From positions 1 through 64,000 of the forward strand of contig WFMF01000205.1 of NCBI GenBank assembly GCA_011033025.1: a stretch of 64,000 nt of DNA, in the 5' to 3' direction. The DNA is from Beroe forskalii (Eukaryota; Ctenophora; Nuda; Beroida; Beroidae). Positions within the stretch are counted from its first letter, which is position 1. Each line of letters begins with the position of its first letter. The notes under the pieces are model-generated. The model ran no database searches. It saw only the letters and a list, made by a program, of their open reading frames with translations, and was not told where the DNA came from. Made by a program: the position numbers and the translations under genes. Shown here one piece after another: positions 2,093-57,349 of this stretch.

Positions 2093-2135
2093 CCACGTCA
2101 TCAACTCACCATTTTAAACCATCACAATGTCATCA
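2093..2135 (+). promoter_or_regulatory. Paired-CRE module 1
   Basis: CCACGTCA, then exactly 27 bp (TCAACTCACC...ATCACAA), then TGTCATCA. Both sites are degenerate CREs. The spacer sequence matches the family consensus. A second, inverted copy lies about 100 bp downstream. Confidence 0.65.
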
Positions 2136-2241
2136 CTTCACCCACCAATATCTTAATCACTATAGTCGAGTAGAAGGTCGCTGGTCACAACTCGTCGTAG
2201 CAATACATATGACCACGCTTCAATGAAAGATTGCAATAAAA

Positions 2242-2284
2242 TGACGTCATTATCATAGGATAAAGAAGGGCGTTGATGACGTCA
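2242..2284 (-). promoter_or_regulatory. Paired-CRE module 2 (two perfect sites)
   Basis: Two perfect TGACGTCA palindromes at 2242-2249 and 2277-2284, separated by exactly 27 bp. Read on the minus strand the spacer starts TCAACG and ends TGATAA, as in the other copies. CREB/ATF-type bZIP factors are the known binders of TGACGTCA; function here is inferred. Confidence 0.8.
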
Positions 2285-5200
2285 CACCGCCATTTCCTTG
2301 CACGTGGAATTAGATGAATTAGATGCAGGGAATATGATAATGACTAGATATATTTTGAAATATAAATATAAAGCTCTACACGCCTAACTCTAGCGGGGGG
2401 TGATTCGCTGGAATTACTATAATGATGATTACACTACCCTCCCACCAGCTAGCACTGTCAGTCACCTCAAGTAAGTCTCTACTTCACTGTCACTCACAAG
2501 CATGCATTGTCTGTCGGTGACAGGCCCTTGTGAGAGTTACGCGCCGCGCACCGCGAAGTTGACGCAAGTCGTTTCAGAGCTTGCGTCTGTATTGTATCAG
2601 GAAACGTCTGACATAAGACAATGAGACAGCGCATAATTTGGAACAGGCTCAAAGCTTCGATTTTCATGACTGTTACAGACTACAGTACCAATCGATACGA
2701 ACTATTCAGACAAAGAAATAAGCAGATTGGTATCATGAAATTCACACTTTTAGCCTTGATAATACCGTCATTCACAATCGTGCCCTATATCATTTTGAAC
2801 CGTTAATATCATGATCCTACTGTTTCATGATCACATAAGTCGACACGGTGACAAGTGAATGATATATTGTAAATCATGAGAAGGTATGGCTACCCCCATA
2901 TGCGCATATGGAAAATAATCAGTTTTTGTCTCGAAAGTTGCACAAAGTCAAAAGAACAGTTAAAACACACGTTTTTGACAGCACTGATATTCGACAGGGT
3001 TTCATAATCAATGAGAAAAAAGAAAAAAAGAAGGAAACTAGTAATGCTTCACGGACTGAAAATACGAAACAATACGAATGGGTTCATTAAAACAGGAATA
3101 GGTAGGAGGGCCCACTAGGCCTAAAACAGATAAATTCCTCGAGGGAGGAGTCAACATGAAGTTGGCTTTGGCCCATCTCCAATTAGAAGTTAAACACCGA
3201 ACAGATCACGACGAACATATAACACAAACAAACGATATAACACACAACACGAACTCACACAAACATTATATCTTACCGGTGTGGAGTTGTTGTTAGTCCC
3301 CTCGACTGCAGGCTCATCAGGATGTACCACTTTTGACGCTACCATCACGATATGGACTATACGAGCCTAGTTCTAGATCAACTATTGTTTGAGTTTAATT
3401 TCCAATAGATTTATCAAAAGTTTCAATTTAATTTAATTCAGAATATTTAATGTTTCGTGAAATTTTTCGGGTCGACTTTTATTGACGCGACATTTAAAAA
3501 TCCGTCTTTGAAATTTTACGAACTTTGTAGGCAAACTGTCATTATTTTCAAAAAAATCTTCGTAAGTTCTACTACTTCATCACATATTCACATCCATTTT
3601 AAAATAACCACGTGTAATTATTGAGGACTTAAATACAAGAGTCTAAGCCCTAATGTCTCGGCTAACCTAATAAAACCATGAAGTTTCATCTCAAATAGTA
3701 CAATAAATCATCGATTGGTCTCTAGTACCGTTCAATTGACCAGAAAATTGCTTTTTATTTGCTCAATCAGGTATTTCAAATACAAAATAATACAGCGAAC
3801 CCCACTGTTCGACCTTGGTGTACCGACTAAACAAGGATTATATGAGCATATATTGAACGCTACAAGCAAATGAAATGCTAATACATCAGCAGTGAGTATT
3901 ATTGCTTACCAGCAGAACCCTGAAATCAGCATGACGTAGACCAATCAGCAAGTGAGTTGATGATCAACTTCCTGCTGATTGGTCGATGTCAAGGGTAGGT
4001 AAGCTAATATATACACTGTCTATAATAAACACACGATCGTATGTCGTCTACTGGTTATTCAGTACGTCATTTAGTACGGTATGCTGCCACATGCAAAATT
4101 ATTTGCTGAAAATGTCAAATAAAAATACGGCGCGACTAAATCATGAATATATAAACACTACTCATGATGTATGTTTTCATATCCCTGAGGCCTGGCTTAA
4201 TCAAATCCTTAAGTAGGATTTTAGCCCAATCCTTATGGGCACATCATTTCATTTGTGACAAAACTTGTTCTGTTAATTTATAAATTTCAAAAATGCACCT
4301 ATAATTTGCAGCTACCTATCTTTCTTAAGGCATTCTATAAATAAAACACAGTAGATATACTGGTAAGCATTGTATGGTAAGCATTAGAGGATTGTTTAAC
4401 TTAACATGTGATGAAGTAGTAGGTTTAACGAACGACAGAGGCTGTTCGTTAATTGGACTTCCAACGATCAAACACGAACCAACATATTTCGGCAAAAAAT
4501 ATATGCTCTGCACTTTTAACAGAGGAAGAATTGTTTTTCCGTAAAATATTTTTCCTAAGAAAGACGTGCGAGTGCGCAAATCCCTAAATTTCGAAAAAAA
4601 GAAGTATAATTATTTAAACTTATTCCAGGAAATATACAAGGTTTTAAAGAGTTTTCAGCGGTATATATTAACAAGGGGAAGCTTCACAGCACTATAAATT
4701 ATATAAACGAAGCTACAAACGTCCGATGAACTTATCCTCAGTGAGTGTAGGTACATATATAACTAGAAGTGTTGACATAGGTTAAAGTCAAAGTGCTTTC
4801 TGCGTACATATACCTACACGCCGCAAACATATGAAATGTGCCGTCGAGGATGAGGTCATAGCTGGGTTTTTTGAGAGAAGTTCATGACGTTTAAAAGTGT
4901 ATTATTTCGTGCGAATATAAATTTCGGCGTGTCCGGATGTTGGTATTTTTTGTGAGAATTATAACACACGGACATCTCACAGTGTGCCTACTCTGCGGTA
5001 CTTTTTAATTTTAGAGAGAGGAAGGAAACGTTTCAGCAAAAATGAGAAAATAATAGCAAAATATCGATGTATGCCTTCTAGAAGTAGTAGGAGCAGAGCC
5101 CGTATGTTATGAAAGAATCATAAAGCATACAACTCCAAAGATCGTGCATATCATCGCTGTCAGATGATCTGATAGTCTCTAGGAGGCTTAATTTCGAATA

Positions 5201-5350
5201 TTAGAAAATTCGTGAGCACTACTTCAACTCAGACGCGTTCAGATATAATTATTGATAATTTTCATATTAAACATTGGTATGTTCTCGACATGTTTCTATA
5301 GTTTCTGTATCTCAACGCTAGTTCGCTTCACACCCTACCGACGCAGGAGG
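2285..5350. other. Intergenic sequence, no gene supported
   Basis: Several ORFs of 60-84 codons occur on both strands, but none has a domain, splice-consistent neighbours or coding-like composition. I see only unique AT-rich sequence and short repeats. Confidence 0.4.
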
Positions 5351-5360
5351 TAGGGGTGGA

Positions 5361-5915: not shown

Positions 5916-6370
5916 CTCACATGAGAGAGTGACATTTGTATTAGTGCTACATATTGGCAGGGCAAGATGACGTCATTATCATAGCTCAAGTGGTCAGTTG
6001 GTGAACCATAAATCACGTGACGGCTTGGCAAGACCTGTTGTTTATAAATATATCTTAGTATAATATAGATGTTTTGAATCTATGATGATCAATACAGAAT
6101 TCATCTCAAAATCAGCTGCAGTGGGCACTTGGCGCCAGGAAGCGTATTAAAAGCTTACCCAATGGATCTTGATACTGACCACGTCCAAGCGCGCTGAATC
6201 AGTGCGCAAGTTGACAGTAAACGCGCGCGCAGATTGGTTGCTATCACAAGTATCCCATGGGTAAGTTCATACACGGTCCAATGCCGTCTCATTGTGAAGT
6301 ATGGTAGTGATAGCATTCTGAAGCAGCTTGTAACTCTGGTGCAAGGCACACGGAGTGCCACTCTTACGTG

Positions 6371-8179: not shown

Positions 8180-9005
8180 GATCTAACGATAAATTCGAAA
8201 TGAATCCGGACTTGAGAAAATTCAATTGGGAACGAGATGAGTCAGAGGATAAAATGACTGGAGGAAAATATTAATCTCAAGAGAGGAGCCGGGGAGAATT
8301 CGCTCAAAGTACGCGATTTGGACGAAGCAAGGAAAGGGGAGGAATGGAAGGGTGAGTGTCAGAACAGGGAGATACATCCTGAGATGAAATGTCATGCTAT
8401 ACCCGGAGCGAATAGTGGCAGTGAAAGGGGGAGGAGGACAAGTTAAGAGACTATAGCAGCTACTTCAACAACATGCAAAGTATATAACCCCCACAAAGGG
8501 GTGTGTCTATTGTTGTACAGCGCGAGCTACTCCTGCTTCTCCTCTTCCTAATGCTCTCTCAGAATATGGAAATAGGCGCTCGCAATGTGACGTCACTAAC
8601 GTAGCGCGCGCTGCCAAATTGTTGGAAATATAACCGCCTAATTTTTCGTACCCCCGCAGCTTGCAGATGTTTATACGGTTTACATATGGTGGTACTCATG
8701 ACACGTGGCATTAAACCCCCCTCCCCCTGGAAATATAAACGGTTCAACGACTTCAAGTTACCCCAGCCTTTGCTTTGATAATGATGTCATCTTAACCGCC
8801 TATTTATTCTGCTCCAAGGTTGCACACAGTGGTATATTCTTGCACACACATGGTCCACAAGGTGAAACTGTGAAACACCATGGTTCAAGGAAGGATTAAG
8901 TGAGGATAAGTGGATATTTTGTAAAGAAGATTCTCCAACAATTTGGGACAAAGCTCAACTGTATATGATGTCATGGCCCAGCAATTTGGCGAGAAGAAAA
9001 TCAAG
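8180..9005. other. Intergenic sequence with one weak paired-CRE module
   Basis: No gene is supported. At 8748-8789 a degenerate member of the paired-CRE family is present (CGACTTCA, 26 bp, TGATGTCA), one base short of the usual spacing. A single TGACGTCA occurs near 8590. Confidence 0.4.
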
Positions 9006-9177: not shown

Positions 9178-9682
9178 AATCATCTACGACTTTATTTCTT
9201 CCTGTTTCTAGAACAATTTCGTGCTTCATTGGTCTAAGACAACGTAGAAAACGCATAGAGCAGATGGGTGTGACTAGACGGAGACGTCCTAGGTTAAATA
9301 TCAGTAAGGAAATTTCTTGGTCGAAAAATTTAGCTTCAAGCTAGCAACAGTTTTTAGCAGTTTCCGCAACGCAGACTACACATATTATCATTCCATCAGA
9401 ATATAATCCCGTATTCTATATCAAGAAAATAAACCCAAAAACGGCCGTATATTTAGCAGACTGAGACATGTCAATTGTCAAAACAAACATAAATTTCGAT
9501 ATATATATCGGGTTAGACTTTCTTGCATATATCGGGTTAGACTTTCCTGCATATACTACATGAACACATCATGTTGTACCACGGGATCAGCATGCCGAGG
9601 ATTAACCATTACGTCACAGTTACACGACATGGCTGGTGGAGTTACGTATATATTTGCAGTATCGCCCAAAACAGAGATCTAT

Positions 9683-9725
9683 ACACGTCATCAACACACT
9701 ACATTGTGCTGTGATAATGACGTCA
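9683..9725 (+). promoter_or_regulatory. Paired-CRE module 3
   Basis: ACACGTCA at 9683-9690, 27 bp, then a perfect TGACGTCA at 9718-9725. The spacer begins TCAACACAC and ends TGATAA. Confidence 0.75.
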
Positions 9726-9938
9726 TCTTCACCGCCTGCTCCGCACATGGTATACCAGGAGTCCCCGAAGGGTGAAGGCTGGCTGATACACATATCCGCC
9801 AGTCATTACCCTAGTATATCGCATCTGGTATATCACTAGATCTCCACCTGGTATATCACTAGAAGTACACGATCCCTGGATGCAGACAGTCCAAACATAC
9901 AGAGATAACGATACTTTGTGATATTGCGGGGAACTGTG

Positions 9939-10350: not shown

Positions 10351-10954
10351 GCAGAATGCAGAGAAATATTGAGATTATGAACATGCGGCGTTAGAGATAA
10401 GAGGATGTAGGTCACGGCCGAAACTACCATTCTTATCCGGACCCGAAAGTGAAAAGTTCCAAAGCTCATGTGACAAGCCGTTGCAGTAGCCATTATGAAT
10501 CTTGTAATCTAGGTTCATGCTAGGTTTATCGCAATATGCACCATATGTACACTATGCAGGCAGCCAAAACTTATGAGTTTCGTAACATGATACTAGAAGG
10601 GAATTCAGAACGCTGGTCTAGTGATCCACTGATTTATAAGGCGTCAAATAACACCATTTCCACAATGCTCACCTTAAGAATTGTTGTGTTTCTGAACTTT
10701 ACGTTGTTAAATGCTTTTAGGACCGTGCCAGTTTAACTGTTTTCGATAATCGATGTTCAACAACCGACTTTTCATCTTCACTCCCCATTGTAAAGACCTA
10801 AACTTTAAATTCAAAGCAGTTATTGTCTGCTGTTGACAGACCCTCGTGAAATTTGACCCACGAACCAGCCAACGCTTGACAAAGCAGTAACTCAGTACAC
10901 ATTTTCTATGAATTTCTTGTAAACCAGCTGTTTATCATACCCCTCTACTTGAGA

Positions 10955-12129
10955 ATGGCATTGTTCCCCCCTTTTGCCAGCAACTACTCTGACCCTGCTT
11001 TCGACTCCCTCATGAACACAGGTTGCGGAGTCTCCCTCACCCTCATCTTCCTTCTCTCCCTCCTCTTCAACAGCATAGCATTCTACGTTGTGTACACCCG
11101 GCAGCAATTCAGCATCACAAAGGTCCTGTTTCTGGTCCTGATCCTGTCTGATCTAACGTACTCCCTGATTAAAAACCCCTTTGCCATCAACAACCTGTTA
11201 AACCCCAAAGTGCTGCCTTCCCTCCCACCAACCAACGCTACGACCTTGCAACTGTTCGTAACAGAAGCCAGCTGGATGTCCATTCACGTCTCCATTAACG
11301 CCATCTTCGGGATCAGTACTCTGCGGTTCCTTAGACTGGGTGCCCCCTGGTGGTCCATTGCACATCGCACTGCCTCCCTGGTCCTGACTTTCCTGCCTCT
11401 GGCTATCATAGCAGGGTTTGAAATAAACAAATATATTTAACTAAGCACCCTCTCACCTTCCATTTTCAGCTGACGACGATATTACGATAATCACATGATC
11501 TTCGAAAGCTCCTGATTGTGATTTATCGTATCATTTTGATTTAACGTTTTAACTTGCTCCCTAAACTTTCATGCAATCAAATTTGAGACCTGAAGGTATG
11601 CCGTAGGACAACGAAATCTTGATTTTTATCTTGTACCAGTGCAACCCAATCAAAAGAAAATAAATATCTCATAACTCTTCCCAGGTGTAACATAGCAGTG
11701 GAGGTCATGATCCTAACCAACACTCCTTATCTTTGGGACCCTGTTAAACAAGACATTCTCTTGAGGGAGAACTACCTCGCCTTCTGTATGCCCCCTGTTT
11801 ACATCCCAGCAGGATTATCCTTCCTCTTTTCTGTTGCTACAATCGTAAAACTGCAGACTTCAGGCAACATGTCGGAAACAACTCGACGCAGTTGCGTTAC
11901 CCTGATCCTTCTTAGTTTGGGTAACTTGACATGGATGGGGGAGGCTGCTTGGACGGCCTTTACGGACCAAATGCCCCCAAAAGCTCAGGGATTTTCTGAT
12001 GTAACCGCATTCGTCATAATCCCGAGCTTTCTGGCCATGTACAACCCGTTAGTGCTGTGCCTCAGGAAGACTCATGTTAGGGAGGTTGTGCGGAGACTTA
12101 CCGAGAGACAGGGTGAGAATGGAAACTAA
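10955..12129 (+). CDS. Divergent class A (rhodopsin-like) G protein-coupled receptor
   Basis: Two exons, 10955-11415 and 11685-12129, join across a 269-bp GT-AG intron (GTTTGA...CCCAG) in phase 2. The product is 301 residues, a normal length for a short class A receptor, with no frame break. The N-terminus carries NYS, a glycosylation site. TM1 holds the conserved Asn (LLFNSIAF) and TM2 the conserved Asp (LILSD). The end of TM3 reads STLRFLRL where DRY is expected, and a TM3-start Cys is not obvious. TM7 ends YNPLVLCLRK, a variant of NPxxY, followed by a basic helix-8-like tail. The DRY and NPxxY changes mark it as a divergent, lineage-specific receptor; no ligand can be assigned. The chosen ATG sits one base after CTCTACTTGAG, a good 3' splice site, so the message probably begins by splicing here. 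Confidence 0.88.
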
Positions 12130-12863
12130 CCGGCAACTGCAAGACTAACCGCGAGGGTGAAGTTGAGGCCAGCAACTTTACAGTTAATACAGATGATATG
12201 CAACAGAGAATGAAGTGTTTCATGAACTTTTAAGTGTGTTCACATTGACACATTCGAAATTGTTGGTTTAAGTAAGGAAAATTTATTTCATAGGTATTGT
12301 ATGCGGTTTTTGCTACAATGGCGCGAGAAACAAAAAGACAGAACAGAAATTATACATGACACAATACACATACTGAATGACAAATATTGAGATTTTCATA
12401 ACGTTTCAGTAAATAATCGGGTCAATTTGCTCCAACGCAGATAGAAATTGTATAGAATTGTTTACCTTTTCGTTGATGATATCAAAGAAGTTTCCCCCCT
12501 TTGCACTTGCAGTGCTCTTCCTGGTGTACGGGATGTTCATCCCTCAAAGATCCTCTCAGAATTCGCAATTTATTCTCTTCTTTGCGATGTATCACGGTAT
12601 GACGCTTATGATTCTCCAATAATTATTCGTTGATCCACCACGTCATCAGGTATACAATATCTCAAATCTCACAGAGAGTTAACACTACAAAAGCTTAACA
12701 ACACCCAATAACAAGAAGCACCACATAAAAATAAAATTTACGCACATAAGACTATGACAGGATCTTATTATCATATTTAACCATAAGTCTTATATAAAAT
12801 ACATCATGACCTGCTGTGACGTACAAATATAACACAAGCGCAGCACCAATGATAGAGACAAAG
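12130..12863. other. Intergenic sequence downstream of GPCR
   Basis: A hydrophobic reading frame of roughly 50 codons at 12475-12630 is open, but nothing else supports a gene. The rest is AT-rich unique sequence. Confidence 0.35.
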
Positions 12864-12906
12864 TGACGTCATTATCAGGGGTTAACATGGTGCTTTGATG
12901 ACGTGG
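12864..12906 (-). promoter_or_regulatory. Paired-CRE module 4
   Basis: Perfect TGACGTCA at 12864-12871, 27 bp, then TGACGTGG at 12899-12906. On the minus strand the spacer starts TCAAAGCACC and ends CTGATAA. Confidence 0.75.
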
Positions 12907-13294
12907 AACTGCCTAAGATCCACAGTGCGTGACCACTGCCCAGTGCCCACTGTAGTGCGAAAGTGCCACATGAGGGGGATGTTTAAATAATGCAGCAAAA
13001 TATTCAGCTTATATTTAACAAGTGTGCAGGGAAATTCAGCAAAATATGCAGGGAAGTTGAACATATTGAGCGAATTTGCTAATTAAATATACAAAAACTT
13101 GAACAATATGGTCAATGACAGCGTCAATAGAGCAATAAAAGCAATTTTGCTAACAACCACCACAAAGCATTCAACCACATCGAAAATTTAGCTTTTTAGT
13201 TTTTGTTTCACGCACTTTGAGTAAACTACTGAGAGTTCAGGGGTCTTTGTTGTTTGAGTGAATTGGAAAATTACGGGAAGATAGGGGTTTGAGT

Positions 13295-15952: not shown

Positions 15953-16363
15953 CTGAGCAAAACTGAGAACGATTCACAGCGATGGAGAGATCAGGGAGTC
16001 TGTGTGCGTATGACGATACAGAGATCTAAGGAGTCGAGCAGGAGTTTATAATGCGTATGTGTACAGATAACGAAGTTAAACAAAAAACGAAGAACAACAA
16101 AGGTATATACGGATTGTAATCAGATGGGATACTCCTGATAATGGTTACACAATTATAATATTCATGTTCTGTAATCCTGCACAATATACGAGGAACAATA
16201 TGTGTAATATGTATCCTACAACAGCTGCTGCAGGCTGCGAGTGGCTGGTAACATAGAGCGAGTTACATGTAAAGTAAAGAAAAGGACCTGCTCTCAAGAC
16301 GACAAATTACAGGTGCAGCTAACAGGTGCGTGAATATGCTGATGAGGGCGGGTGTAGGCCACT

Positions 16364-16406
16364 CAGCGTCAGTAAAGTACCATGGAAAGCTATGATAATG
16401 ACGTCA
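16364..16406 (+). promoter_or_regulatory. Paired-CRE module 5
   Basis: CAGCGTCA at 16364-16371, 27 bp, then perfect TGACGTCA at 16399-16406, spacer ending CTATGATAA. Confidence 0.7.
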
Positions 16407-16924
16407 TCAGGACAAACAAATATAGTGTAACCAGCCAATTATCTAGTGTTTGATGATGAGCAATATAAGTTTGAAAATCACAACAGAGAGATATACTATC
16501 AGACTTTACACTTATCACACATCAGAACAATGTGGTGATCCCTCATGAGAGGTTGTCAGTGATTTAATGTGAGCATGAGAGCGAGTGTATGGGAATGGGG
16601 AGATGGAACAAAGTCAGAGAACAGCAATACTTGGACAGCAATGCTTTATTCGTTAAATCTGTTGGGCTGTGATCATGATTTATGAAAGTAGAAATAGCCA
16701 AACCTCTTGAAATGTTTGTCATGATGAGATGATGGTTCATCCATCAATCTGGAGTCGTAAACCGGAAGCCTTTTCCTGCTGGTTCCGATGTGTAGGTACA
16801 CTGCAGTCCAGCCAAGAATGTACATTTTACATCCGTTTACCAATGTACAGCAGAATTTATACACAGTAACGAGAAAGTTCGCGAATACACAGTGAATCGA
16901 ACATACGAAAAGGTACAATTTAGG

Positions 16925-17050: not shown

Positions 17051-18096
17051 GAGCGGAATGTGTGTAAAATGTACATTGTACTCATGTATACGTCATTTCA
17101 GTGCAGTTTGTGTCACGAGGAAGCGAGAATCGTGAAGTAGTGAATTTGAATTTCGAGATTTGAATTGTATCCTTGTCAGTTTGTCAGTTTGTATTGCTCT
17201 GTTCTTTTGTTAATCACTTGTGATTCTTTCGTGAACTGCATCAAATTGCAGCGTAGATGCACGGTGGAATTTCAAATTGATGGAAATACGGAAGCAGATT
17301 AAACTTTTAAGTGTCCCGTATTCGTACCTGGTGCGCTGAAAACTGCAGACCACTTTTGACTTCTAAGATCTGGTTTAATTTGAACTTGTATTGTATCACA
17401 ATATTGTATTGATCAGAATATCATTTCTTTAATGTCGCACATGAGCATTGATCGCACATATTTATGTATACCGATATTGTTTTTAGTTCTACTGACGGTT
17501 GCGTCACATTCACGTATCTACTCTCAAACCCTCATATCTACTCTCAAACCCTCATATCTAACTATCTAACTATCTAACACGTGATCATTATAAACCTACA
17601 TCTCGAACTCCATTTGTTCGTTTAACTTGTCTCAGCATCTGCACTAAAATGCTATAAACTGACGACTTTATCGTTTAGATCGTAAGACTGTAAGGAGAGT
17701 AAGACAGCCATCCAACCAGAAAGACACTTAACCGCTGGAAAACGTTCAGGAAAACTACCACTAATGAAAGTGCAATAACGGGTAGGTATATGGTAAGATA
17801 TCAACTTAAGATACTGATCCATTAAGCCATCATGCTCATTCTCTCATGAGTCATGATATCAATGGTTATTTGCCATGTTCTGAAGTCGGAACAATTCTGA
17901 GTACCACAAAAAAGTTTGAAGTTAAAGGAATACAAAAAATGAAAGAAAGAAAGTAAGAAATAATCACCATTTTTAGAAAGTAACAAAATTTAAATCGGGA
18001 AAACAGATTACATTAAACCATTAAAATCCCTACACAATCATGGCAATGCAGACACAAGGTAATTCTCATTATGATGCCCACAGAAACTACGCGATT

Positions 18097-18139
18097 TCGC
18101 GTCACTAATTTACCATTCTAAACCCTGATAATGACGTCA
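18097..18139 (+). promoter_or_regulatory. Paired-CRE module 6
   Basis: TCGCGTCA at 18097-18104, 27 bp ending CCCTGATAA, perfect TGACGTCA at 18132-18139. The duplicated partner is at 21499. Confidence 0.7.
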
Positions 18140-19331
18140 TCGATCAAAATCTCAACCTCCTAGGATTCCTATTATCACCTGTCTGACAGCTGTCAGTGCG
18201 AGTTGAAAAGTACACAAAAACACATCATGAAGCAATATAGCTGTGTGATGATAGGGGTGAACTGTGAACTTCACTGTATAAACTTCATAGAAATCATGAA
18301 AAATAGAGGGAAATCATGAAAATTAGATGGAAATCATTCAGAATACTATAATTACCAAATAAATGAAGGATTGTAAACAGTAAATGTACAGTTATATCAA
18401 ATATATTTTTGAAGTATAAGGTGCACAACAATACAAGTTGTAAAATATGATTTAACAAGAGCAAAAGCAATAATCGGACATTCCGATTACACCGATCGAC
18501 GAATTCCGATTGAATAAATATCGCTATATTGACTTATTCATTATCAATTGACTTTACGTTGCAAATCTGAATAAAAGAGTAAAGTGACTTTGGAAACAAA
18601 GCTTTAGCACTTGTGAAGGATCGAGATGTAAAGTTATTGAAGTTGCGAGAATAAAGGAAGCTGAAGATAAAAAAGTTTTCGCGAAGTCGGGTGGACTTTG
18701 CTAGAAGTAGAAACAAACAACAACAATCAAGATGCCGCACTGCAGAAAACCTACAACCTGATACATACGAATTCAGTTCACACAGACAACAATACACAAC
18801 TTGGCATGTACCCCGAACAACATGTACAACATTTACATGGGACATATCCCCAACATGATAAAGTTCATGTTACAAATTAATAATGCGTATTTATAGATCT
18901 AAATAGATAAATTAATCAAGCACACACGCATTTCAAGATACCATCATTCGATCAGGAGATGGCATATCTAGAAGTCGCAGGGGTACAAAACGCGGATCAA
19001 AGTGGCATAATTTTCAGGGATGGGAATGCGAGAGTTGTGATATGATGATGCCTATGTTTGCGTCTGTGACTGAACAGGTTTTGGGCCTGGTCGCGACATA
19101 ATATGCAGATATTCACAACGCAGGAAGAGGCAATGTTAAACATCTAGTTCTACAGAAGCTGCAACTAATGCATGGGCTGCTGACCAGATGACCACCATAT
19201 AATGATGGAAATTGATCGCTTCTCTCCCCGCCCCCGTTCACTGCAAAACAAACTAACAAGCTAATACTCTAATTATTCAGCTTATATAAGGTATTTGCCA
19301 ACATGAGTTCTAACATTCTAACATTCCTTAC

Positions 19332-19392
19332 CTTGTTCCGTAACACGTGGTAGATGTTCACAGCCTGAGCCATTTCACTGAGCTTGTGAAGC
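19332..19392 (-). CDS. Alternative exon, copy A (minus-strand gene)
   Basis: Reads LSEMAQAVNIYHVLRNK on the minus strand and ends AAG|GTAAGG. Using the same acceptor as copy B (TTGTAG) the exon would be 61 nt and out of frame. Using the AAG ten bases further in (19382) gives 51 nt, phase 0 at both ends. Compared with copy B the residues differ conservatively (A/S, I/L), although several bases changed, suggesting selection on the protein. Confidence 0.5.
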
Positions 19393-19572
19393 CTACAAGG
19401 TATGCAAACCCTCCAGCGTTGTCTGGATTACTGTCTACTGGTAAAGAGGACAAGGCAGGTAGAGAGGACTAGAGGCTGGTGGAGGTATTCCAAGTGTGGA
19501 AGAAAGCAAGAAATATAAACCTTAAAACTCGAAATATAGGCATCTACTAAACTTCCGGGGAGATATGTTGTA

Positions 19573-41900: not shown

Positions 41901-42186
41901 CTATGGAATACTCTGTATTGTAGTACTGCCAGTCAACTCAGTTATCAATCCCCTACTTTATGATAACGGCGTCAGTATTTTGTTCCAGAAAGTTTTAAGG
42001 AAGGCAAGCAAACATGTCCCTAACCTGACCATTAAAACAGCCAATAAACCAACCACCAATTCGACTGCTGGGGGATCTCACTCAGCCTCCCCAACCACGG
42101 GAAATATAGAAATGGAAAGTATAATTGTAAAGAACATAGCTATTGACGATATTGATATCGAGACAAGTTGTGAAAGTTCTCTGTAA
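38952..42186 (+). CDS. LDLa-repeat receptor with LGR/RXFP-like seven-helix domain
   Basis: Exon 1 is 38952-39203 (84 codons, signal peptide MCSLKNRIVLICSIAFTEIM). Exon 2 is 39420-42186, joined in phase 0 by a 216-bp intron. About 1,000 residues in all. A Cys-rich ectodomain carries about five LDLa-type modules (for example CDKNHDCVDKSDE, CDGVINCADISDEC). TM6 reads FIILTDFCCWMPF and TM7 VVLPVNSVINPLLYD, hallmarks of the leucine-rich-repeat GPCR/relaxin receptor group. No leucine-rich repeats are visible, and the second extracellular loop is unusually long (about 90 residues). TM3 (SLFAMTALSFARY) and TM4 lie in a different frame from TM1-2 and TM5-7. The frame changes at five places, near 39958, 40283, 40751, 41151 and 41356, all next to runs of 2-4 identical bases. 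Conserved Cys and helices continue through each. Likely a plasma-membrane peptide receptor; consensus indels are the simplest explanation, recent decay the alternative. Confidence 0.85.
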
Positions 42187-44569: not shown

Positions 44570-45336
44570 ATGGCAGGGAGGGAAGGGGCAGAATAGAATC
44601 ACTGAAATTCATTGGTGCAGAGAAGGAGGGGGCAGATACACGGGGGCAGGGATTGAGGGGTTTAAAGGGAGTGGGGGTCCAGATATCACAGAAATAAGAA
44701 GAGAATCAAAATTGCTTTACTTCTGCCAGCACTTTCATTTTGTGCCTGTCGGCGTTCTAAGTTCATCCATTCTGCCAAAAGTAGCTCCTTCCCACTCCCA
44801 TTTTCGTTAATATTCCTCGCCTTTTCCCAGAAAACTACAACTATTCAACGTATGTGATATTTATTTGTTGCTAACCTTGCTGATTAAAATGCCATCTTTA
44901 TATATGGCTTGGGGCCGTGCAACATCATAACAAACCATGACTTTGAAACCCTGCATATATTGCAACATATTAAGGAGGGGATCCTTACTCCTTAGCAGCC
45001 GATAACATATAAAACATTAAAACAGGAGACTAGGGATTGGGAACAAAGACTTGATATATAGATCTATGGAGATAATGAGAAGGCTATTAATAGAACATAA
45101 TGCACCCTGCCCGATACTTCGTCACATTAGCCCACCCCCCCCCTATTACTGCTTGCTTCTGCAACACCCAATGCCATATGCAGCAAACTAGCCTCAATTA
45201 CAACGTTACGACCCTTGCTGCAATACCCATCACTGCTTAGTACTAGGACCCTTTCTACAACACCCTACGCCAAATGCGAGAAACATTGCTCACTGCTCCC
45301 TGGACCCTGCTTTATACGCCTCTGATATAGGTGAGT
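44570..45336. other. Intergenic or intronic sequence
   Basis: Contains simple poly-C stretches (about 45133) and no exon I can support. Confidence 0.3.
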
Positions 45337-45379
45337 GGATGTCACCACTCCACCGTTTTAAAGCAAAGTAATGACTTCA
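45337..45379 (+). promoter_or_regulatory. Paired-CRE module 8
   Basis: GGATGTCA at 45337-45344, 27 bp (CCACTCCACCGTTTTAAAG...GTAA), then TGACTTCA at 45372-45379. Degenerate sites, exact spacing. Confidence 0.55.
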
Positions 45380-46212
45380 ATAACCACCTCCAATGTATAA
45401 TGAATGGTATTTGGTAAGAAGAAGGGTGAGAGTTGTTACAGAAAGGATGAAGTTATTAGCCTCTGTCAGATTATTGGATATGTGCGTAGTTATGTTGGTA
45501 GTTATGAGTGAAGGAGAGTGAGTTAGCGCTTCCCTCCTTAGCTTTTCTCACTCATCATGATTCTTGGTGTGAATCTTTCCTAGTTTTGGTCGTCACAATG
45601 TGACTCATCTTGGTGCGAGTCATTGGGAACTTGTGCTGCTCACCGACTCAGACTGTGGCGAATGATCGCTGAGCACAACATAGTGGTCATGTTGTCAAAC
45701 AGTGACACTCACCAACATACTTACATGGTGTTACCTTAAGGGACCATGTTTAAGTACAACAGAGTTGAAGTCTTGCAGATTGATGTCTTTCGAAGAAACC
45801 ATTCGTTATTCTGTGAGGTTTGTGACTTGTGATGAGTCAGAGGAGTTAGAGCTTGCCTTTCCTCGTTTTGAGTGTGAGCACCATATTAATTCAGCTTGAT
45901 GCTCTGCTAGCTGGGATTTCCAAGAATTGCTTGAGCAGGACCATTTTCTTTGTTATTTATCTTTTATTTTTGATCGCCCCGCCAAATCTTGCTGGAAGAT
46001 AAAGAGAGCCTCAGCAGTAAGCAGCCAACACTCATACAGCAGCATACAGCAGCATTCAGCAAGTCCATACTATAAGAGTATAAGGGGCTATATGTTCTGT
46101 TAGCGTTCGTATTGATTTGTTTGTTGTTTGGGCATCATTTTACTCCCATGAGGGTTAGCAAGGCATGTGATGCTTTTAAACGCCCAACACTAAATTAATA
46201 AGCGATTGTGTT

Positions 46213-46255
46213 TGATGCCATTGCCATGATTTAGGATGAGGAATTGATGACGTCA
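46213..46255 (-). promoter_or_regulatory. Paired-CRE module 9
   Basis: TGATGCCA at 46213-46220 and perfect TGACGTCA at 46248-46255 with 27 bp between. On the minus strand the spacer begins TCAATTCCTCATCC. Confidence 0.65.
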
Positions 46256-47860
46256 CTCCGTATCTTCTATTTCCCCGTACGCAGGTTTTTTACTGAATAA
46301 TGATCTCGACATAGCTATATATAAGAATTGATGGCCCTGCCTTGCTGCAATGTGAATTACACGCTAAAACTTATTGTCCTATTCTCCTCCTTAAAAACAA
46401 AGGCTGTATGGTCAGAGATCACAGTATGTAGGTCGACATGCTGCCTATTAGACATGTTGTCTAACAAAGACAATTATCCTAAAACGCAGGTTTAGTCGTT
46501 TTATTCCAATGTGCATATTTTGCGTTGTGGTTTTAATGGTCAACATGCAATCGAGGCGTTTTCCATTGATTTTTTAAAATATTTTTATATGCAGTTAATT
46601 GTAAAAGATAAAAAAGTAGACATAGTTCTCTGCGATCAGCGACCAATCTTCACGCGTAACCTACGTGAAAGAGTAGCCAAGAAAGCTTAAAACTTTTCGT
46701 TTTTCGGAAGATTATAAATTACAATAGAGTTTTGAAATCAAAGTTTAATTAGACTTTTTAAAGCACGCTTTTCCTGGTCCCTGATCACATTGGCATGCGT
46801 GCTATGTTTCCGCAAAAAGCCGACACAAATCAGTGAAATGTAGACATGAAAAGATTTACTTTCACCGTAAAAATTAATTTTTACAATTTTGTAACATTGA
46901 ATCGTTTTCTGTGAACGAGAAAAATGCCGAAAATCAAAAGAACTTCTTCAAAAACAAAGTAAGCAGGTGCAGCATTATGGGATTTTAATCTTTGATCTTC
47001 AAGCGGCACTATTATCAATACTTCAATAGCAATCAATAGCTGAATTATCAAGCGCAATTACTGGAAATTAATTTTCTGTGAAAAAAGTTTTATCCTTTAT
47101 CCGTGAAAGAAGCTTTATCTTTCAACTTTAAATTTGACAATAGGCAACTAGGATGATGCAATACAAATGGTTGGTTCTTTGTTTAGAATAAATTTCACAC
47201 CTTCAAAAACTCTAGAAAAGCTTCACGGCTACGTGTCAACCTAACATTATTACAAAACAAATCTTAATATAACGCTCGATTCATTATTTTCGTATAATTA
47301 TAAGTCACATAATAAATTCCACCAAATGTTGGGGTCTCAAGTTCACCCTGACACCTGCTCCCAACACCAGCTGCAGAACATAATATTTAAATATAATACG
47401 AGGATACCTAAATTAGGGAACCCTTTCTGGGACAGCAAGTGCTCAACAAAACACCATTCTTAAACATGATAATGACGTAGCGATTCCTCCCTAACCGGCA
47501 ATTCATCATCGTGATATATATATTTAGTGATGCCTAGTTTTAGTGTCAGATAAGTGGTATTTATGTATGCATGTCGGTCAATTAAACGTCTAGAAATAAA
47601 GGCTAGTGGCGCTTAATTGGTACCAGTACGTCAAATATTACGCGGGCTCGGAAATGAAGCGGTCTTAATTCGACATCAATTAAACGTTCTAACCTATGAT
47701 CATGATCTGCCATTTCACTGCCCTTTATTTCCCTGTGCGATTATAAACAGTAAATTTAAATAGGTAAATGCAAGAGGGGGATCTGTTTTGTTTGTTTGAC
47801 CACACTTTGTTTGTTTGGGGAGGTACAGGACTCCGCAGTAGCCCTGGCAACTGGGACCAC
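46256..47860. other. Intergenic or intronic sequence
   Basis: No exon is supported. A degenerate CRE half-module occurs near 47473 (TGATAATGACGTAG). Confidence 0.3.
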
Positions 47861-49059: not shown

Positions 49060-51570
49060 AACATCTTCAATTGTAACAATTAAAACGCCGTGTTCTTGTG
49101 ATATTTCAATGAATATATCATTCATCATAGTCATACATTCTGAGAAGTTAATTGGTTAGAACATACAACTGACACGCAACATATTCATATCACTACGCTC
49201 TTATCTTAACTAAATCTATAAATAATTGAATTAAATTAATTTATTAGAAAATGCACTGAATATATTATACGACAATCTACTGTCTGCTATTATGTGAAAT
49301 ACAATATATATTATACAAGATACACAGCAATTGGCAATGTCAAGGCACGAGCACTGTACACAGTACACAGTGACGTAATGACGTATGTGAGCTAGTAGAG
49401 AGAGAGAGTTCCCGCTCAAACCCTATGCTTGTCAATACGTCACTGCATACCGACACTCTGTTGCTCAGTGACTCTGTGTCTTGACCTTGTCAATAGCTGG
49501 GGAAAATTCTGCCTTTCAGTTGGTCTTGATACGTTGGTAAATTAAATAAGAATAACGGTACTGATTTCAGTTTATCATTAATTAATGTTCCATCATCGTA
49601 TTCCTGTATATATAAGCTTTCTTTAATTTTGCGTTTAAACATTTTGCTTTCAAACGTTAGTATATCACAGTTCTCAAACGTGATTTGGCAACCTGCGTGG
49701 ATTTGCCGCCAAGTGTTTTCCAACTTCAGTCATACCAGTTCCACTTGTCTTCATGTGTTCTTCAAACAAATGTTCGAAAGAGCACGACAAGTCCACCAAT
49801 ATACCGTCTTCTTCTAAGTGATCCTGTATACCAAATCATGTTTGAGGTGTTTTGGCTGTCTGTCTTTAAAACTGAACTTATGACATAATTTAGAATAACT
49901 GTTTAAATAAATTAACTGACATTTCCCCGGTAAATCCTTACTAATACATTGTTTTGACTTTCGATGAAATGTCGCCAATGTATGGTAACTTAAAATACAC
50001 TAAACTTTTCTGGCCCTTCGTGTACCAGCTTTTTCTGTCGTGTTAACTTTATTAGTAATTTTGTTGATAATATACGTAAAATTTTTATCCATTATTGTTT
50101 CCAATACTTAATAAAAATTTTTAAATAAGCTTCCATTTTTTTATCTAACATTTCTACAATTTTCTCAACTTCATCATGAAATAGTTCCACGAGCACACAA
50201 ATTTTGTACGCTCGATCGACTAAAAGTTTATTAAACCTATTTTTTTTAACGGTGAAAAACTGAGAAAGTAGATGAACACACCTGGTGTGTCGGTTTACGG
50301 TATACTGTAATGTAGATATCCTCTGTACTAGGAGTTACTGTCTTTAATGATAAGTAGATCTAAAATCGGCGATTTATCTGACACTTTCTTTATCACATGT
50401 AAAATTCTAATACTGGGATGTAAACTGTTTAAGCCGACTAAAAATCTGTCTGCATCATCTTCATTATCAAATTTTAAAAGTATCATCTACATATGCAAAA
50501 TACAGTTAAAAGAATGATTCATGGACTTTGTTCGACTAATAAATTATATTTAAGTAGTCAGGAACTAAGGAAGTTGAGAAATTACTAATAATGGATACAG
50601 TAAAATTTTACGTATAGTATTAGTTCAACAAGGTACATAAAGGGCACGAGAAAGTTTAAGGGCCAGAAAGTTTATGTGTATTTAGTTACCATGATTATGA
50701 CATTTCATCGAAAGTCAAACAATGTATTAGTAAGGGGATTTACCGGGGAAATGTCAGTTAATTTATTTAAACAGTTATTCTAAATTATGTCATAAGTTCA
50801 GTTTTAAAGACAGACAGCCAAAACAATTCTCAAACATGATTTGGCATACAGGATCACTTGTAGTTGTGGGCGACGGTATATTGGTGAGACGGTCGTGCTC
50901 TTCGAACACGGTTTGAAGAACACATGAAGACAAGTGGAAACTGGTAGGCAAATCTTGAAGTTGCCAAATCGTTTGAGAACTGTGACAAGTTGCCAAATCA
51001 CAAAATGTTTAAAACGCAAAAAAATGTTTAAACGCAAAATTAAAGAAAGCTTATATATACAGGAATGATGGAACATTAATTAATGATAAACTGAAATCAG
51101 TACCTGTTCTTATTTAATTTACCAACGTATCAAGACCAAACTGAAAGGCAGAATTTTCCCCCCAGCTATTGACAAGGTCAAGACACAGAGTCACTGGGAG
51201 CAACAGAGTGTCGGTATGCAGTGACGTGTTGACAAGTAGGTTTGAGTGAAACTCTCTCTCTCTCTACTAGCACATACGTCATTACACTGTGTGCTCGTGT
51301 ACAGTGCTCAGCCTTGACATTGCCAATTGTTGTGTATCTGTATAATATATATTGTATTTCACATGGTAGCAGGCAGTGGATTGTCGTATTGTATATTCAG
51401 TGCATTTTCTAAACAAATTAATTTAATTCAATTATTTATAGATTTAGTTAAGATAAGAGCGTAGTGATATGAATATGTTGTGTGTGTCACAAGTGGTTCT
51501 AAATTAACTTCTCAGAATATGACTATGATGAACATATATTCATTGAAATATCACAACACCATGTCTGCCA
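49060..51570 (-). mobile_element. Broken Penelope-like element (PLE) with inverted-repeat arms
   Basis: Two arms of roughly 950 bp, 49060-50045 and 50625-51570, are inverted copies of each other around a unique centre of about 580 bp. The centre, on the minus strand, contains the reverse-transcriptase signature YVDD (50482-50493) followed by a typical RT palm stretch. The arms carry remnants of a GIY-YIG endonuclease (CSCGRRYIGET in the right arm), as in the C-terminus of Penelope-like elements. Inverted terminal organisation is known for this family. It is an old, truncated fossil with multiple breaks in both arms and is not expected to be active. Confidence 0.75.
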
Positions 51571-52409: not shown

Positions 52410-53110
52410 CAAACGTATAAGTTGTAAAAACTCGTCTTGTCAGTTGTCCGATTGTCCGCCCGAAACGATTAAACAGTCATGTCTTTATCAACTAATCAAG
52501 CTTTATCATGCTGAACAGATGACGTTGCAGAAAGCACCAAACACTAACTGTAAGTGCTAACAGCTTGAGGTATCGGGACAGACTTCTTCACTGACACTTC
52601 TTATGACAGGTCTTTAAAGTATTGTTCTAAATTGCAGGGCTATTCAGGTATATCTCGCTATATAGCAAGATTTTCGAGGAGGATTATATTGATCGTCTGA
52701 TTGTAAGCAGTTCAGCAGTTCAGCTCCCTATCTAATGAATTAATGTTCTCACTACTGAGTACTGATGTACTTCTAAGTTTCGCTTTAATTTTCACGCTCA
52801 CCGCTCACAAAAACAGTAAGGTGTGGTTGCGTTTATCTTTTTCATAATGCACTGATGAAGCTGAAGCCTCTATCTTCTTTCGAGCGTGGTGTAAAAACAA
52901 TACAATGGAGACGAGTTTCTACACCATGGTAGGCTTTGTGTATGTGTAAAACAATGAACAATGTCAATAGTTCTATATCACAGATTGTTGTACCTGCTAC
53001 TAGCAATAAAACAATTTAAACGTTTACCAGTGACCCCACATACGCCCAGTTTTGTTGCCACTTTGTGTTGTTTCGTCTTTCATATTGAGAAATATAGGTT
53101 GTTTAGTGTT
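52410..53110. other. Intergenic sequence, no gene supported
   Basis: Nothing recognisable. Confidence 0.3.
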
Positions 53111-53153
53111 TACTGTCAATACCTGAACTCATAAAGCTATGATAATGACACCA
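53111..53153 (+). promoter_or_regulatory. Paired-CRE module 10
   Basis: TACTGTCA at 53111-53118, 27 bp ending GCTATGATAA, TGACACCA at 53146-53153. Confidence 0.55.
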
Positions 53154-53996
53154 CATATTAACAATCACTGGCATTCGTAGGCGTTGTTACTAACACAAAT
53201 TGGTATTCGTTCGAATTGTTACCATTCATATTACATAGTACCAGCTATTTGTTTACCATTTCTATGTTAAAAAATTAAACTTTGATTAGTGTTTGATTAT
53301 GAATTGGGAGGCCAATTATAGATTCTATTCACTTTTTTCATAACCTAACTTTGTCTACGATAAAGGATGTTTGGTACGTACTATACATAAAAGTTTCGAC
53401 TTTTGCTAATTAGAAACGTTTTGTACTATAAGTTTTCAAAGCTGCCCGCTAGCAAAGTTTTTGCAAGACTTAGTGTAATGATTGTCAATGTTTTATTAAG
53501 GATCACATAAAATACTGATCTGCAGTAATATTCCAGCTCTTATATCTTGCTTGAATTATCTTATCTTGCCATTCAGCCTCATTCTACTCCAATCATTTGA
53601 GCAGCTGTTCGTGCGTCTCTCTTGAAATATTTCACAAGTTAACTATTATATCCTGCTTTGCAGGTAAGAATGTTTCTCGTAGGAAGGGTTTATTCATTCT
53701 CCAATATCGCATGAAATGTTCGAAATTCCTAAGCTTTTGTCCATTGATTAATCTGATTTGTAAATAGTCTGATACAACATTCGCGGGGAGTTTAATGGTT
53801 CATCGATTCCAGTGTGATTTGACTCGCCGATTTGTCGGATTTGTTTATTTCTGTCCAATGAGAGTTTTAAAAACTTAAAATAACAAAAGAAATCCGATGC
53901 ACAGTGTAAAAGTGCAGACCTTGAAGTCACAAAAAATATAATCGTGTCGAAAATCGAAATCTACAATTCTGAATCCACTCTACTAAATCCTGATAA

Positions 53997-54039
53997 TGAC
54001 ATCATCGACACACCATTTTAACGCCTGATAATGACGTCA
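53997..54039 (+). promoter_or_regulatory. Paired-CRE module 11
   Basis: TGACATCA at 53997-54004, 27 bp (TCGACACACCATTTTAACG...TGATAA), perfect TGACGTCA at 54032-54039. The left site is itself preceded by AAATCCTGATAA, so the unit appears partly tandemised. Confidence 0.75.
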
Positions 54040-54719
54040 TATTCTCCAGGACCGGTCCTGCAAGAAACACACAATGTTCCTCTCTTTGTTATTATACACA
54101 GAGCTGACACCTGGGCCTCTCTTTAGAACTTAAAAACTCTCAAACAATTAGAGAATTATAGCATATTACCAAGTGCTATTCAACATCTGTGTGGGCGTTG
54201 CTTTGCACTTTAGAGGCGTTTCAACTGTGATTATAATGATCTGTGATTATATACTTTTTCACAAAGTTTGCTCGCTCGCTTATTAGGGCATGGTTTCTTT
54301 TTGACACTTCTTTGATCCGTGAAGAGAGTCACCAATCGCTCTAATTAATCAACTACTTAAATTTGGCAGAAATCTGGCACGTTCATTGATAGCAAGAACG
54401 AAGTATTGTTTTGTGCCGAGTAGCAATCTGCAACTGAGCACCTGCCCATGAAACCGGAAACTAATGATCGAGATGGTTCATCTCATGACGCAATACAGGT
54501 TCCAAAAACTACCGTATTTATCATATTCTCTTCCAGAATGTTCCAGACTTTCTACTAAGTTGCAATCTCTCTCGTTGATTGGAGGCCGTAGAATCACCCC
54601 ATTGACTTCGTGATAGTATATAATGTTACCACTTTAATTAATTAAACTACAAACTTGGGCGATGAGAAGCACCTGTCCAAGGCATTCCAGAGACCCCTGA
54701 GAAATCTTGGTGGACGAGA
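54040..54719. other. Intergenic sequence, no gene supported
   Basis: Nothing recognisable. Confidence 0.3.
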
Positions 54720-54762
54720 TGACGCTGTTAATTCACCATTCTAAACCATGATGATGACATCA
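54720..54762 (+). promoter_or_regulatory. Paired-CRE module 12
   Basis: TGACGCTG at 54720-54727, 27 bp (TTAATTCACCATTCTAAACC...), TGACATCA at 54755-54762. Confidence 0.6.
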
Positions 54763-54859
54763 AGATAAGGGTTACGTTACTCATAACTTGTGTCGAAGAA
54801 GTCCAGAATGAGATCATACTCGTGGAGTTGAGTAGTCACTGCTTATTTTACCTTTTTAT

Positions 54860-56335
54860 GGTTTGTCCCACTTCCCGAATGATATCACCCCTACCCGATG
54901 TAGACAAATGATAAAACGGAGTTAAAGGGGAATAAACTAAATAGCAAATATGATACTTATAGAATAGTCTCAGATATCTCGCAGCTAGGATGTAGGAACT
55001 GAAGGTGTAGCTTGATTCTCTCAGGTAGGTGTAACTATATCATAAAGGGCATCCTATAGGGGATGTAGTCTGGTTAGTATCAGGTGAAACAGACTTCCCC
55101 GCTTTTCCTTTTTAACTGAAAGTCTTTCATGCGACATTTCCCCCTCTCCTCTTTTCTGAAAACTGAATTACTGATCAGCACAACAAACTTGATCCTTCCA
55201 ATCATCGTCACTACGCAGACAGACCCCATCCTTTCCGGGGCAAACCTATCCTTCTGACTGACAGACCCCATCTGTTCCGGGGCAAACCTATCCTTCTGAC
55301 TGACAGACCCCTCATTTCCGGTGCAAACCTTTCCTCAGTCTAACTGACAGACCCCATCTGTTCCGGGGCAAACCTATCTCTTGATCCAGGTCGTTGTGTG
55401 ATTACCCATAGTCCAAAACCAAGGCGGGGAAACGCGCACCAAGCAGTACAAAGGGAACGCGCATTAAGAATGCTAAAACTTTTCCAATAAAATGTCTTCG
55501 CGCGTGACGTCTTTGAGAAAATTGCCAATTTTACGCGCAAAATTCAAAGTTTTTTTTGCGTGTAACTTCCTGTACAAATTGCTCAACTCTGATTATCTGA
55601 TTAAACTTTTTAAATGTCACAAGTGGCAGTTAATTAAACTTCCGATCCACTTTGAAGCTAGTTTTTGAGAAGCAAAAACCGTGATTTTTACTCGGTGATT
55701 AACAAGTTTTTAGGGAAAATACCGTGAAATGATGTGGGAAGAATCCGTGGAAGTACTAGTAGGAACGCTGACTTCACTGCTGTAGAAGAACGATTCAGGA
55801 GAATATGATGGAGATGTAAGCTGCGAGCACTGAACATCGGAGAGAGCTGCATGAGACACGTAAAATATATATTATTTCTCTAAAAATTATTCAGTTATCC
55901 CCTTATATTATGACTAAATTGTTTTATTTCATTGAACATAAATTCGTTACAAAATTGATCAACATAAAATCGTTAAAACTTTAAATATGAGGTGAATGAA
56001 TGAATGAATCCCTCTAAAATATCATAAAACATAAAACGGACAATAATTTAACTTAAATTAACAACAAATCACCACATAAGTCCCCTTTCCATGGTTGAAT
56101 GACATATGGAATGTGTACCGAACTCCCTAAAACTAATCCCATGATTTGAGTATGAAGGATGTTATCAAACCACTGTTTCACCTGATACTAACAGACTACA
56201 TCCCCTATAGGATGCCCTTTATGATATAGTTACACCTACCTGAGAGAATCAAGCTACACCTTCAGTTCCTACATCTAGCTGCGAGATATCTGAGACTATT
56301 CTATAAGTATCATATTTGCTATTTAGTTTATTCCC

Positions 56336-56374
<39 letters not shown>

Positions 56375-56643
56375 TTTGTCCCACTTCCCGAATGATATCA
56401 CCCCTACCGATGTAGACAAATGATAAAACAGGTTAAAGGGGAATAAACTAAATAGCAAATATGATACTTATAGAATAGTCTCAGATATCTCGCAGCTAGA
56501 TGGGAACTGAAGGTGTAGCTTGATCTCTCTGGAGTGTAACTATATCATAAAGGGCATCCTATAGGGGATGTAGTCTGGTTAGTATCAGGTGAAACAGACT
56601 TCCCCGCTTTTCCTTTTTAACTGAAAGTCTTTCATGCGACAAC
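54860..56643. mobile_element. Fold-back repeat: three copies of a 160-280 bp unit around a poly-A run
   Basis: Copy A (54860-55136, +) and copy C (56372-56643, +) are nearly identical over about 275 bp. Copy B (about 56185-56340) is an inverted copy of the central 160 bp. Shared phrases include CATCCTATAGGGGATGTAGT and TTAGTATCAGGTGAAACAG. A 32-bp poly-A run (56340-56371) separates B from C. A and B could be terminal inverted repeats of a roughly 1.5-kb element, with C a partial duplicate. No transposase is visible. Confidence 0.65.
55210..55380. repeat. Tandem repeat of about 42-55 bp, four copies
   Basis: Units contain GACAGACCCCATCTGTTCCG followed by GGGCAAACCTATCCTTCTGA, with small length variation. 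Located inside the fold-back repeat. Confidence 0.85.
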
Positions 56644-56649
56644 ATTCTA

Positions 56650-57306
56650 TGCTCTGAAATACCGCTGGTCGACCGATGCGTTAATAAATAGCTATTTCTA
56701 ATTGGCCGAATTTACAAAGTGAGTAGCGAGTATTGGCTCGATTTCATGAGATGATGGAGCTAGCATTTTCCCTTATTATCATTTATCCGCTTTATTATTT
56801 CATTTTTCCGGTATATTTTTTTATTTTATATTCTGAATGTCGCGATTTTCAATAAACTATTATTTCATGAAAATCATCAAGATTAAGATTCTTCTTCGGG
56901 TTTGATATATGAGTATATGGGCACATCGAAGTATTGACCTATCTGAAGATTTATCATTTTGGAGTCGTATCTGGGACATAATAATACCTTTGATGGACCA
57001 ACTAATATTGAATGAAAATTGAAACAAGGGCGATGTGCATTACTGATGGCTTTTTCGGCATTATTATAAAACCACAGGAAAAATGAACACAGTGATTTGA
57101 GTGTCATCATCTTGTGAATATAGTCAGAATTAATACCATCAAACTTCACACACGTTTAAGGGAACTAAAAACCACTCTATCATACGCTGCTATAGTCACC
57201 GGTCACGTTTTCTCAATCCTACCACCATATTGAGTCCAGCATACAGTTCTTTGATGCTATATTTATCCAGTGAACGCCCCACACAGCATTAATAATGTAG
57301 GCGATG
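56650..57306. other. Intergenic sequence, no gene supported
   Basis: An 88-codon minus-strand ORF (56883-57149) ends in PEEES but shows no domain or splice partner. Confidence 0.3.
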
Positions 57307-57349
57307 TGGTGTCAGTAACTCACTACGTTTAGCTATGATAATGACGTCA
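57307..57349 (+). promoter_or_regulatory. Paired-CRE module 13
   Basis: TGGTGTCA at 57307-57314, 27 bp (GTAACTCACTACG...CTATGATAA), perfect TGACGTCA at 57342-57349. Confidence 0.7.

Follow-up and report, generated by a model that had tools for sequence, protein, structure and literature searches.

Miniature inverted-repeat transposable elements (MITEs) are short, non-coding sequences that are dispersed in both orientations and carry inverted repeats near their ends; a length of about 80 bp lies at the lower end of their size range. A repeat family with these same structural features is described here from the ctenophore Beroe forskalii, in a stretch of 64,000 nucleotides (GenBank assembly GCA_011033025.1, contig WFMF01000205.1, positions 1 to 64,000 of the forward strand), which is hereafter called the window and to which all results refer. 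Its copies are built around two sites related to the palindrome TGACGTCA, held 27 bp apart. It differs from MITEs in that its ends are less conserved than its centre, and in that a search of 20 copies revealed no target-site duplication.

Two described systems may serve as the best working parallels. PMC9757741 describes, in the CERP2 and CELE2 MITEs of C. elegans, pairs of the motifs m1 and m2 at narrow spacings, which are bound by HIM-17 and partly constitute germline promoters; in that account, m1 and m2 are unlike other known eukaryotic motifs. A motif pair, a narrow spacing range, a position inside MITE-type inverted repeats, and many copies are common to both families, whereas co-option and binding have been demonstrated experimentally in C. 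elegans and the likeness drawn here is one of description. In placozoans, according to PMC12221973, a loop-anchor motif is located in the terminal inverted repeats of Mutator elements. The common feature is a motif dispersed with the ends of DNA transposons in an animal genome, again likened by description and not by letters.

The palindrome TGACGTCA itself is the cAMP response element (CRE), the site of CREB/ATF bZIP proteins (compare PMC1796609). In the Beroe family, by contrast, it is embedded in 43-80 bp of shared sequence and constitutes a candidate site, predicted from its letters. Literature searches yielded no description of this repeat, and four exact motif strings had no occurrence in the literature searched.

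A short repeat family with a fixed internal spacing

The repeat family is real and statistically strong. The palindrome TGACGTCA is observed 18 times against 0.90 expected, with a maximum of 4 among 100 shuffles, and ranks third in observed/expected ratio among the 256 palindromes of 8 bp; the two with a higher ratio consist of G and C only and have counts of 5 and 3. Spacing was assessed by counting pairs of TGACGTCA-like sites, with up to two mismatches per site, at each start-to-start distance d. Over the whole window, d=35 (a 27-bp spacer) gives 12 pairs and is exceeded by d=32, with 21 pairs, an excess that is ascribed to a minisatellite of 16-bp period at 29161-29527. Once tandem arrays are removed, d=35 retains its 12 pairs, and the other spacings from 16 to 119 have a mean of 1.4 and a maximum of 6, which bears out the spacing reported in the initial annotation of this DNA.

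That annotation had listed 14 sites, and every one of them was found where it had been placed. Twelve of these (all except 53111 and 8748) were used as seeds for leave-one-out profiles, which recovered 11 of the 12 at E≤3.8e-5 and failed for 45337 (E=0.96); the two non-seeds are weak by the seed profile (E=0.039 for 53111 and E=0.44 for 8748). The seed profile adds copies at 5968 (minus strand), 21464, 25348, 47438, and 53962, with E from 2.2e-7 to 0.0014, although 21464 is not independent, because it and 18097 are paralogues within a duplication of 2.8 kb. After iteration, the profile finds 23 copies at 13 bits or more, on both strands as had been claimed (17 plus, 6 minus), and thus raises the earlier count of at least 14. 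No copy reached 13 bits in 50 first-order Markov windows, where the top random score was 11.5. The iterated scores are no independent test, because the profile was built from these copies, and four of them, at 2728, 23669 (minus), 47668, and 20391 (minus), reach the threshold through the iterated profile only (seed profile E=0.1 to 1). The copies are given below with their iterated-profile scores; a start called annotated is that of the initial annotation, and added marks a copy absent from it.

2083-2138, plus: annotated 2093; 35.8 bits, leave-one-out E=1.4e-6
2238-2295, minus: annotated 2242, both TGACGTCA sites exact; 42.2 bits, leave-one-out E=3.9e-8
2716-2778, plus: added copy 2728; 30.3 bits, seed profile just E=0.1
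5964-6016, minus: added copy 5968; 31.6 bits, seed-profile E=1.5e-5
8568-8647, plus: possible related unit of 80 bp, outside the 23, from the outer-arm pair search; 3.9 bits
8729-8809, plus: annotated 8748, 81 bp, fullest outer arms; 26.0 bits, seed-profile E=0.44
9674-9732, plus: annotated 9683; 37.3 bits, leave-one-out E=1.4e-6
12858-12915, minus: annotated 12864; 47.4 bits, leave-one-out E=3.6e-11
16353-16408, plus: annotated 16364; 37.8 bits, leave-one-out E=2.4e-5
18088-18143, plus: annotated 18097, within the segmental duplication; 47.3 bits, leave-one-out E=7.1e-10
20385-20418, minus: added copy 20391, cut by a 100-N gap, paralogue of 23663-23722; 13.5 bits, supported by the duplication
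21445-21511, plus: added copy 21464, paralogue of 18097, left arm 8 bp longer; 34.9 bits, supported by alignment
23663-23722, minus: added copy 23669; 34.2 bits, seed profile just E=0.13
24425-24479, plus: annotated 24432, closest to the consensus, both TGACGTCA sites exact; 46.5 bits, leave-one-out E=2.8e-12
25344-25395, plus: added copy 25348; 24.6 bits, seed-profile E=0.0014
45325-45386, plus: annotated 45337, weak; 31.0 bits, yet leave-one-out E=0.96
46206-46266, minus: annotated 46213; 35.2 bits, leave-one-out E=3.8e-5
47438-47479, plus: added copy 47438; 28.1 bits, seed-profile E=1.7e-5
47661-47705, plus: added copy 47668, weak; 21.4 bits, seed profile just E=0.53
53108-53158, plus: annotated 53111, weak; 23.8 bits, seed-profile E=0.039
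53971-54009, plus: added partial copy 53962, in tandem 35 bp ahead of the next; 20.2 bits, seed-profile E=2.3e-4
54002-54045, plus: annotated 53997; 33.0 bits, leave-one-out E=2.8e-7
54712-54764, plus: annotated 54720; 34.4 bits, leave-one-out E=1.7e-5
57295-57357, plus: annotated 57307; 46.8 bits, leave-one-out E=4.2e-8

The two sites are unequal. The match to CRE consists in an exact TGACGTCA at the right site of 11 of the 23 copies and at the left site of 3, one copy being cut by Ns at its left; both are exact in only two copies (2242 and 24432), so that a module of two TGACGTCA sites, as first proposed, is strictly true for these two alone. The spacer is itself conserved and reads CTCACCATTTTAAACCA followed by TGATAA, a pattern that had been recognised with its conservation understated. 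Among 18 copies, the match to the consensus is 90% for TGATAA, 87% for the right site, and 69% for the spacer (Fisher p=6.5e-6 for TGATAA against spacer). The best-kept part is TGATAATGACGTCA; its weakest column, kept in 11 of 18 copies, is the G of the right-site CpG. Conserved columns run from about 4 to 43, with a sharp right edge at 43 and a left edge that fades over about 13 bp (17 copies).

Degenerate patterns of 27 and 20 letters were also searched in public sequences. Neither had a match in viral contigs, and the shorter one gave three in prokaryote genomes. These score 15-18 bits by the iterated profile because the searched pattern is the best-kept part of that profile; the fetched stretches of the prokaryote loci contain nothing further that reaches 13 bits, and the three matches were taken as chance.

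Some copies and TGACGTCA sites lie within other repeated structures. A direct duplication of 2.8 kb (17645-20415 and 20999-23693, about 87% identity), the first half of which ends at the 100-N gap 20419-20518, carries one plus and one minus copy in each half, 2.2-2.3 kb apart. The region 30841-31330 holds three exact TGACGTCA at 30874, 30896, and 31262 that are outside the 43-bp family, the last of them within the 14-bp palindrome TGATGACGTCATCA, together with two direct occurrences of ATAGGCTATA at 30851 and 31217, 366 bp apart.

Flanks and limits of the unit

The family is more extended and more palindromic than the initial annotation saw. On the left, about 13 bp more are shared, with the consensus GAAAATAGGCGGTT; their information is 4.45 bits (20 copies), and none of 5000 null sets exceeded 3.38. 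When a matrix trained on these left flanks is applied to the right flanks, its reverse complement reaches a sum of 85.1 (21 copies), while random sets have a mean of 49.2 and a maximum of 77.8 in 2000; as controls on the same copies, the matrix read forwards on the right flank gives 41.8 and reversed on the far left flank 54.2. The inverted-arm pattern was first suggested by copy 8748, and this copy was therefore dropped in a repeat of the test, which gave 71.7 against a null mean of 44.7 and a maximum of 70.7 in 3000 sets (19 copies). Inverted repeats are thus present at both ends, strongly degraded, with 0 of 2000 and 0 of 3000 random sets as good, and the earlier statement that flanks are not shared gives way to a common left flank of about 13 bp and a weaker inverted match on the right. 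The best right-arm match falls 4-5 bp past the right site in 8 of the 21 copies.

Three outer-arm pairs occur in the window (8569-8644, 8732-8806, and 36566-36627), compared with 0 or 1 in each of ten randomised windows. The fullest copies are 8729-8809, the arms of which match a consensus assembled by hand from the flanks (GGAAATATAGGCGGTT and TTAACCGCCTATATTTCC) at 14 of 16 and 17 of 20 bases, and 8568-8647, which retains the outer inverted arms and one TGACGTCA with a different centre. Given the inverted arms in the flanks and these two copies, the family probably descends from a near-palindromic unit about 80 bp long. Such a unit is too short for a protein gene, and the two scanned open reading frames (ORFs) that overlap copies (9407-9775 and 25374-25634) had no Pfam family match.

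Further out, the 400-bp flanks of 20 copies, with the unit masked, share nothing apart from two matches of 44-48 bp (E=0.04) and stretches where neighbouring copies overlap. It had been asked whether a single long transposon could account for all copies as its fragments; to judge by the 64-kb window, it does not, because these flanks have almost nothing in common.

Origin and possible uses of the repeat

It is judged fairly probable that a MITE-like element of very small size, copied with the help of a transposase encoded elsewhere, gave rise to the family, and that the copies have since decayed. The ancestral non-coding unit of about 80 bp would have consisted of an outer arm GGAAATATAGGCGGTT, an inner arm TGACGTCATCAA, the centre CTCACCATTTTAAACCA, an inner arm TGATAATGACGTCATC, and an outer arm TTAACCGCCTATATTTCC. 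Copying would have spread it, most likely as a non-autonomous DNA element, and the copies would have decayed after dispersal; the fixed 27-bp spacing would then follow from the geometry of the unit. The length and information content of the shared sequence point to an origin by copying, with transposition as the presumed route of dispersal. Of the possibilities first raised, a tiny mobile or expanding element is the best fit to the long shared sequence, its limits, and the outer inverted repeat. The term MITE-like is preferred to MITE because the target-site duplication was not found.

Several observations weigh against this origin. When each copy's own left flank is also excluded, the right-flank sum falls to 70.2 (19 copies), just below the null maximum of 70.7, for which the full matrix had been used. 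Only 9 of 21 copies have a right-arm score of at least 5, so that the signal comes from a minority, 6 of these 9 sharing the offset of 4-5 bp. The outer arms are the worst-kept part of the unit (8.7 of 16 and 9.9 of 20 bases, against random means of 6.7 and 8.1; 22 copies), the opposite of what terminal inverted repeats usually show, and a good core is not linked with a good right arm (Spearman -0.36, p=0.13, 19 copies). No target-site duplication of 2-10 bp appeared in 14,400 tests of length and offset on 20 copies, the top excess being 3.6 standard deviations with no copy exact there; the copies may be too old for one to remain. Neither a transposase nor an autonomous relative turned up in the 64 kb, where 19 ORFs were scanned with Pfam. 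A shared-derived-base test that keeps the divergence of each copy revealed no significant subfamilies in 18 copies: values as high arose in 67 of 400 sets for the core and in 36 of 400 when the flanks were included. A looser subfamily test had been positive (1, 4, and 1 of 500; 19 rows) and was not used once divergence was kept.

It seems unlikely that the family is instead a host cis-regulatory or architectural element, that is, a protein site of about 40-57 bp, multiplied as a MITE or otherwise and kept by selection, with bZIP alone, or bZIP plus a second factor at TGATAA or ACCATTTTAAACC, as candidate binders. The high conservation of TGATAA and the right site relative to the spacer agrees with such an element, but that of the right site is partly a matter of ascertainment, since the finding was made through TGACGTCA, and the G of its CpG is poorly kept. 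When sites are ranked without the right arm, the top 13 keep at least 10 of 14 right-arm bases, and 8 of them all 14; these 13 are, however, the training copies of the matrix, and among the untrained, lower-scoring matches only 2728, 21464, and 47668 keep at least 9 of 14. The copies are unevenly spread, with a copy-free gap of 20 kb around the gene at 35-42 kb (P=0.013 in a post hoc test, 20 copies). Against selection by the host, constraint within a transposon lineage, through transposase binding, would give an identical pattern. The core of the paralogous pair 18097/21464, which by eye appeared better kept than its surroundings, is not notably so (60 of 2520 positions as extreme), and this candidate was dropped. 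The conservation of TGATAA and the right site could reflect selection after insertion, constraint on the source element, or partly the mode of discovery.

The proposal of the initial annotation that two bZIP dimers read the module as a regulatory unit is not supported, because the left site is rarely complete (3 of 23 copies); the distance of 35 bp would correspond to about 3.3 helical turns. A single bZIP-type site is a candidate, because conservation is concentrated in TGATAATGACGTCA, and a DNA-binding protein may have co-opted the core, though this is unproven. A combined reading, by analogy with what has been shown for CERP2/CELE2 and proposed for the placozoan Mutator ends, appears rather unlikely: a miniature near-palindromic element would have spread a composite 43-bp site, in which TGATAA and CRE are joined by another half-site at a distance of 27 bp, and a host protein would use its copies as enhancer, promoter, or loop-anchor sites. 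An RNA hairpin or non-coding RNA was considered as well and rejected on covariation, Rfam, and folding. Covariation of the inner arms is 0.095, below the shuffled mean of 0.112 (452 of 500 shuffles reach this value; 17 copies), the Rfam scan at the gathering threshold is empty, and the fullest copy is not unusual in its folding compared with shuffles (z -0.82, 39 of 200 as good).

With low probability, the copies are terminal repeats, single or in pairs, from a larger DNA transposon, for example a Mutator-like one, the interior of which is lost or lies elsewhere. Mutator elements are defined by a target-site duplication of 8-10 bp and a Mutator transposase; neither a duplication of 2-10 bp (20 copies) nor a transposase match (19 ORFs, Pfam) was found. 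Convergent neighbour pairs would suit terminal repeats (2093+/2242-, 18097+/20391-, its paralogous 21464+/23669-, and 45337+/46213-), as would the Mutator terminal inverted repeats that contain a loop-anchor motif in placozoans (PMC12221973), but the majority of copies lie outside such pairs, the inverted arms surround single copies, and the flanks have almost nothing further in common. Plain satellite or microhomology debris, in which a 35-bp tandem unit was scattered by recombination, is very improbable: 53962 and 53997 lie head to tail at 35 bp, and the end TGACGTCATC resembles the start TGACGTCATCAA, but theirs is the single tandem pair among 23 copies, and the outer inverted arms are left unexplained.

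Genomic surroundings and biological meaning

Three gene spans were marked in the window, at 10880-12129, 35260-42186, and 60317-61198, and none of the 23 copies starts within them; intronic positions, which had been claimed for some copies, were thus not seen in this partial annotation. In the span 35260-42186, ORFs match a galectin-type lectin domain and a rhodopsin-type seven-transmembrane domain above Pfam cut-offs, as well as SRCR and LDL-receptor-A pieces below them; the span is possibly one receptor gene that combines these domains. The other two spans are seven-helix receptor-like by eye and have no Pfam family match. Within the large span, a 127-bp unit is repeated three times in tandem at 38134-38517 and includes what appears by eye to be an exon end followed by GT.

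Other repeated structures are present. A large inverted repeat at 49096-51556, with arms of about 920 bp that are 86% alike, is perhaps a foldback element. At 54861-56641 there are several inverted and direct repeats, 44-276 bp long and nearly identical, which look like a recent mobile-element structure. Over the whole window, the E-box-type palindrome TCACGTGA occurs 9 times against 0.86 expected.

If the family is just a worn MITE-like one, it is a repeat of an ordinary kind, unusual only in a unit so small that repeat annotation could overlook it. Should its core have been co-opted, it would provide the genome with closely packed CREB/ATF sites of the cAMP/stress type, already in place, and their reuse could be tested directly by means of the fixed spacing.

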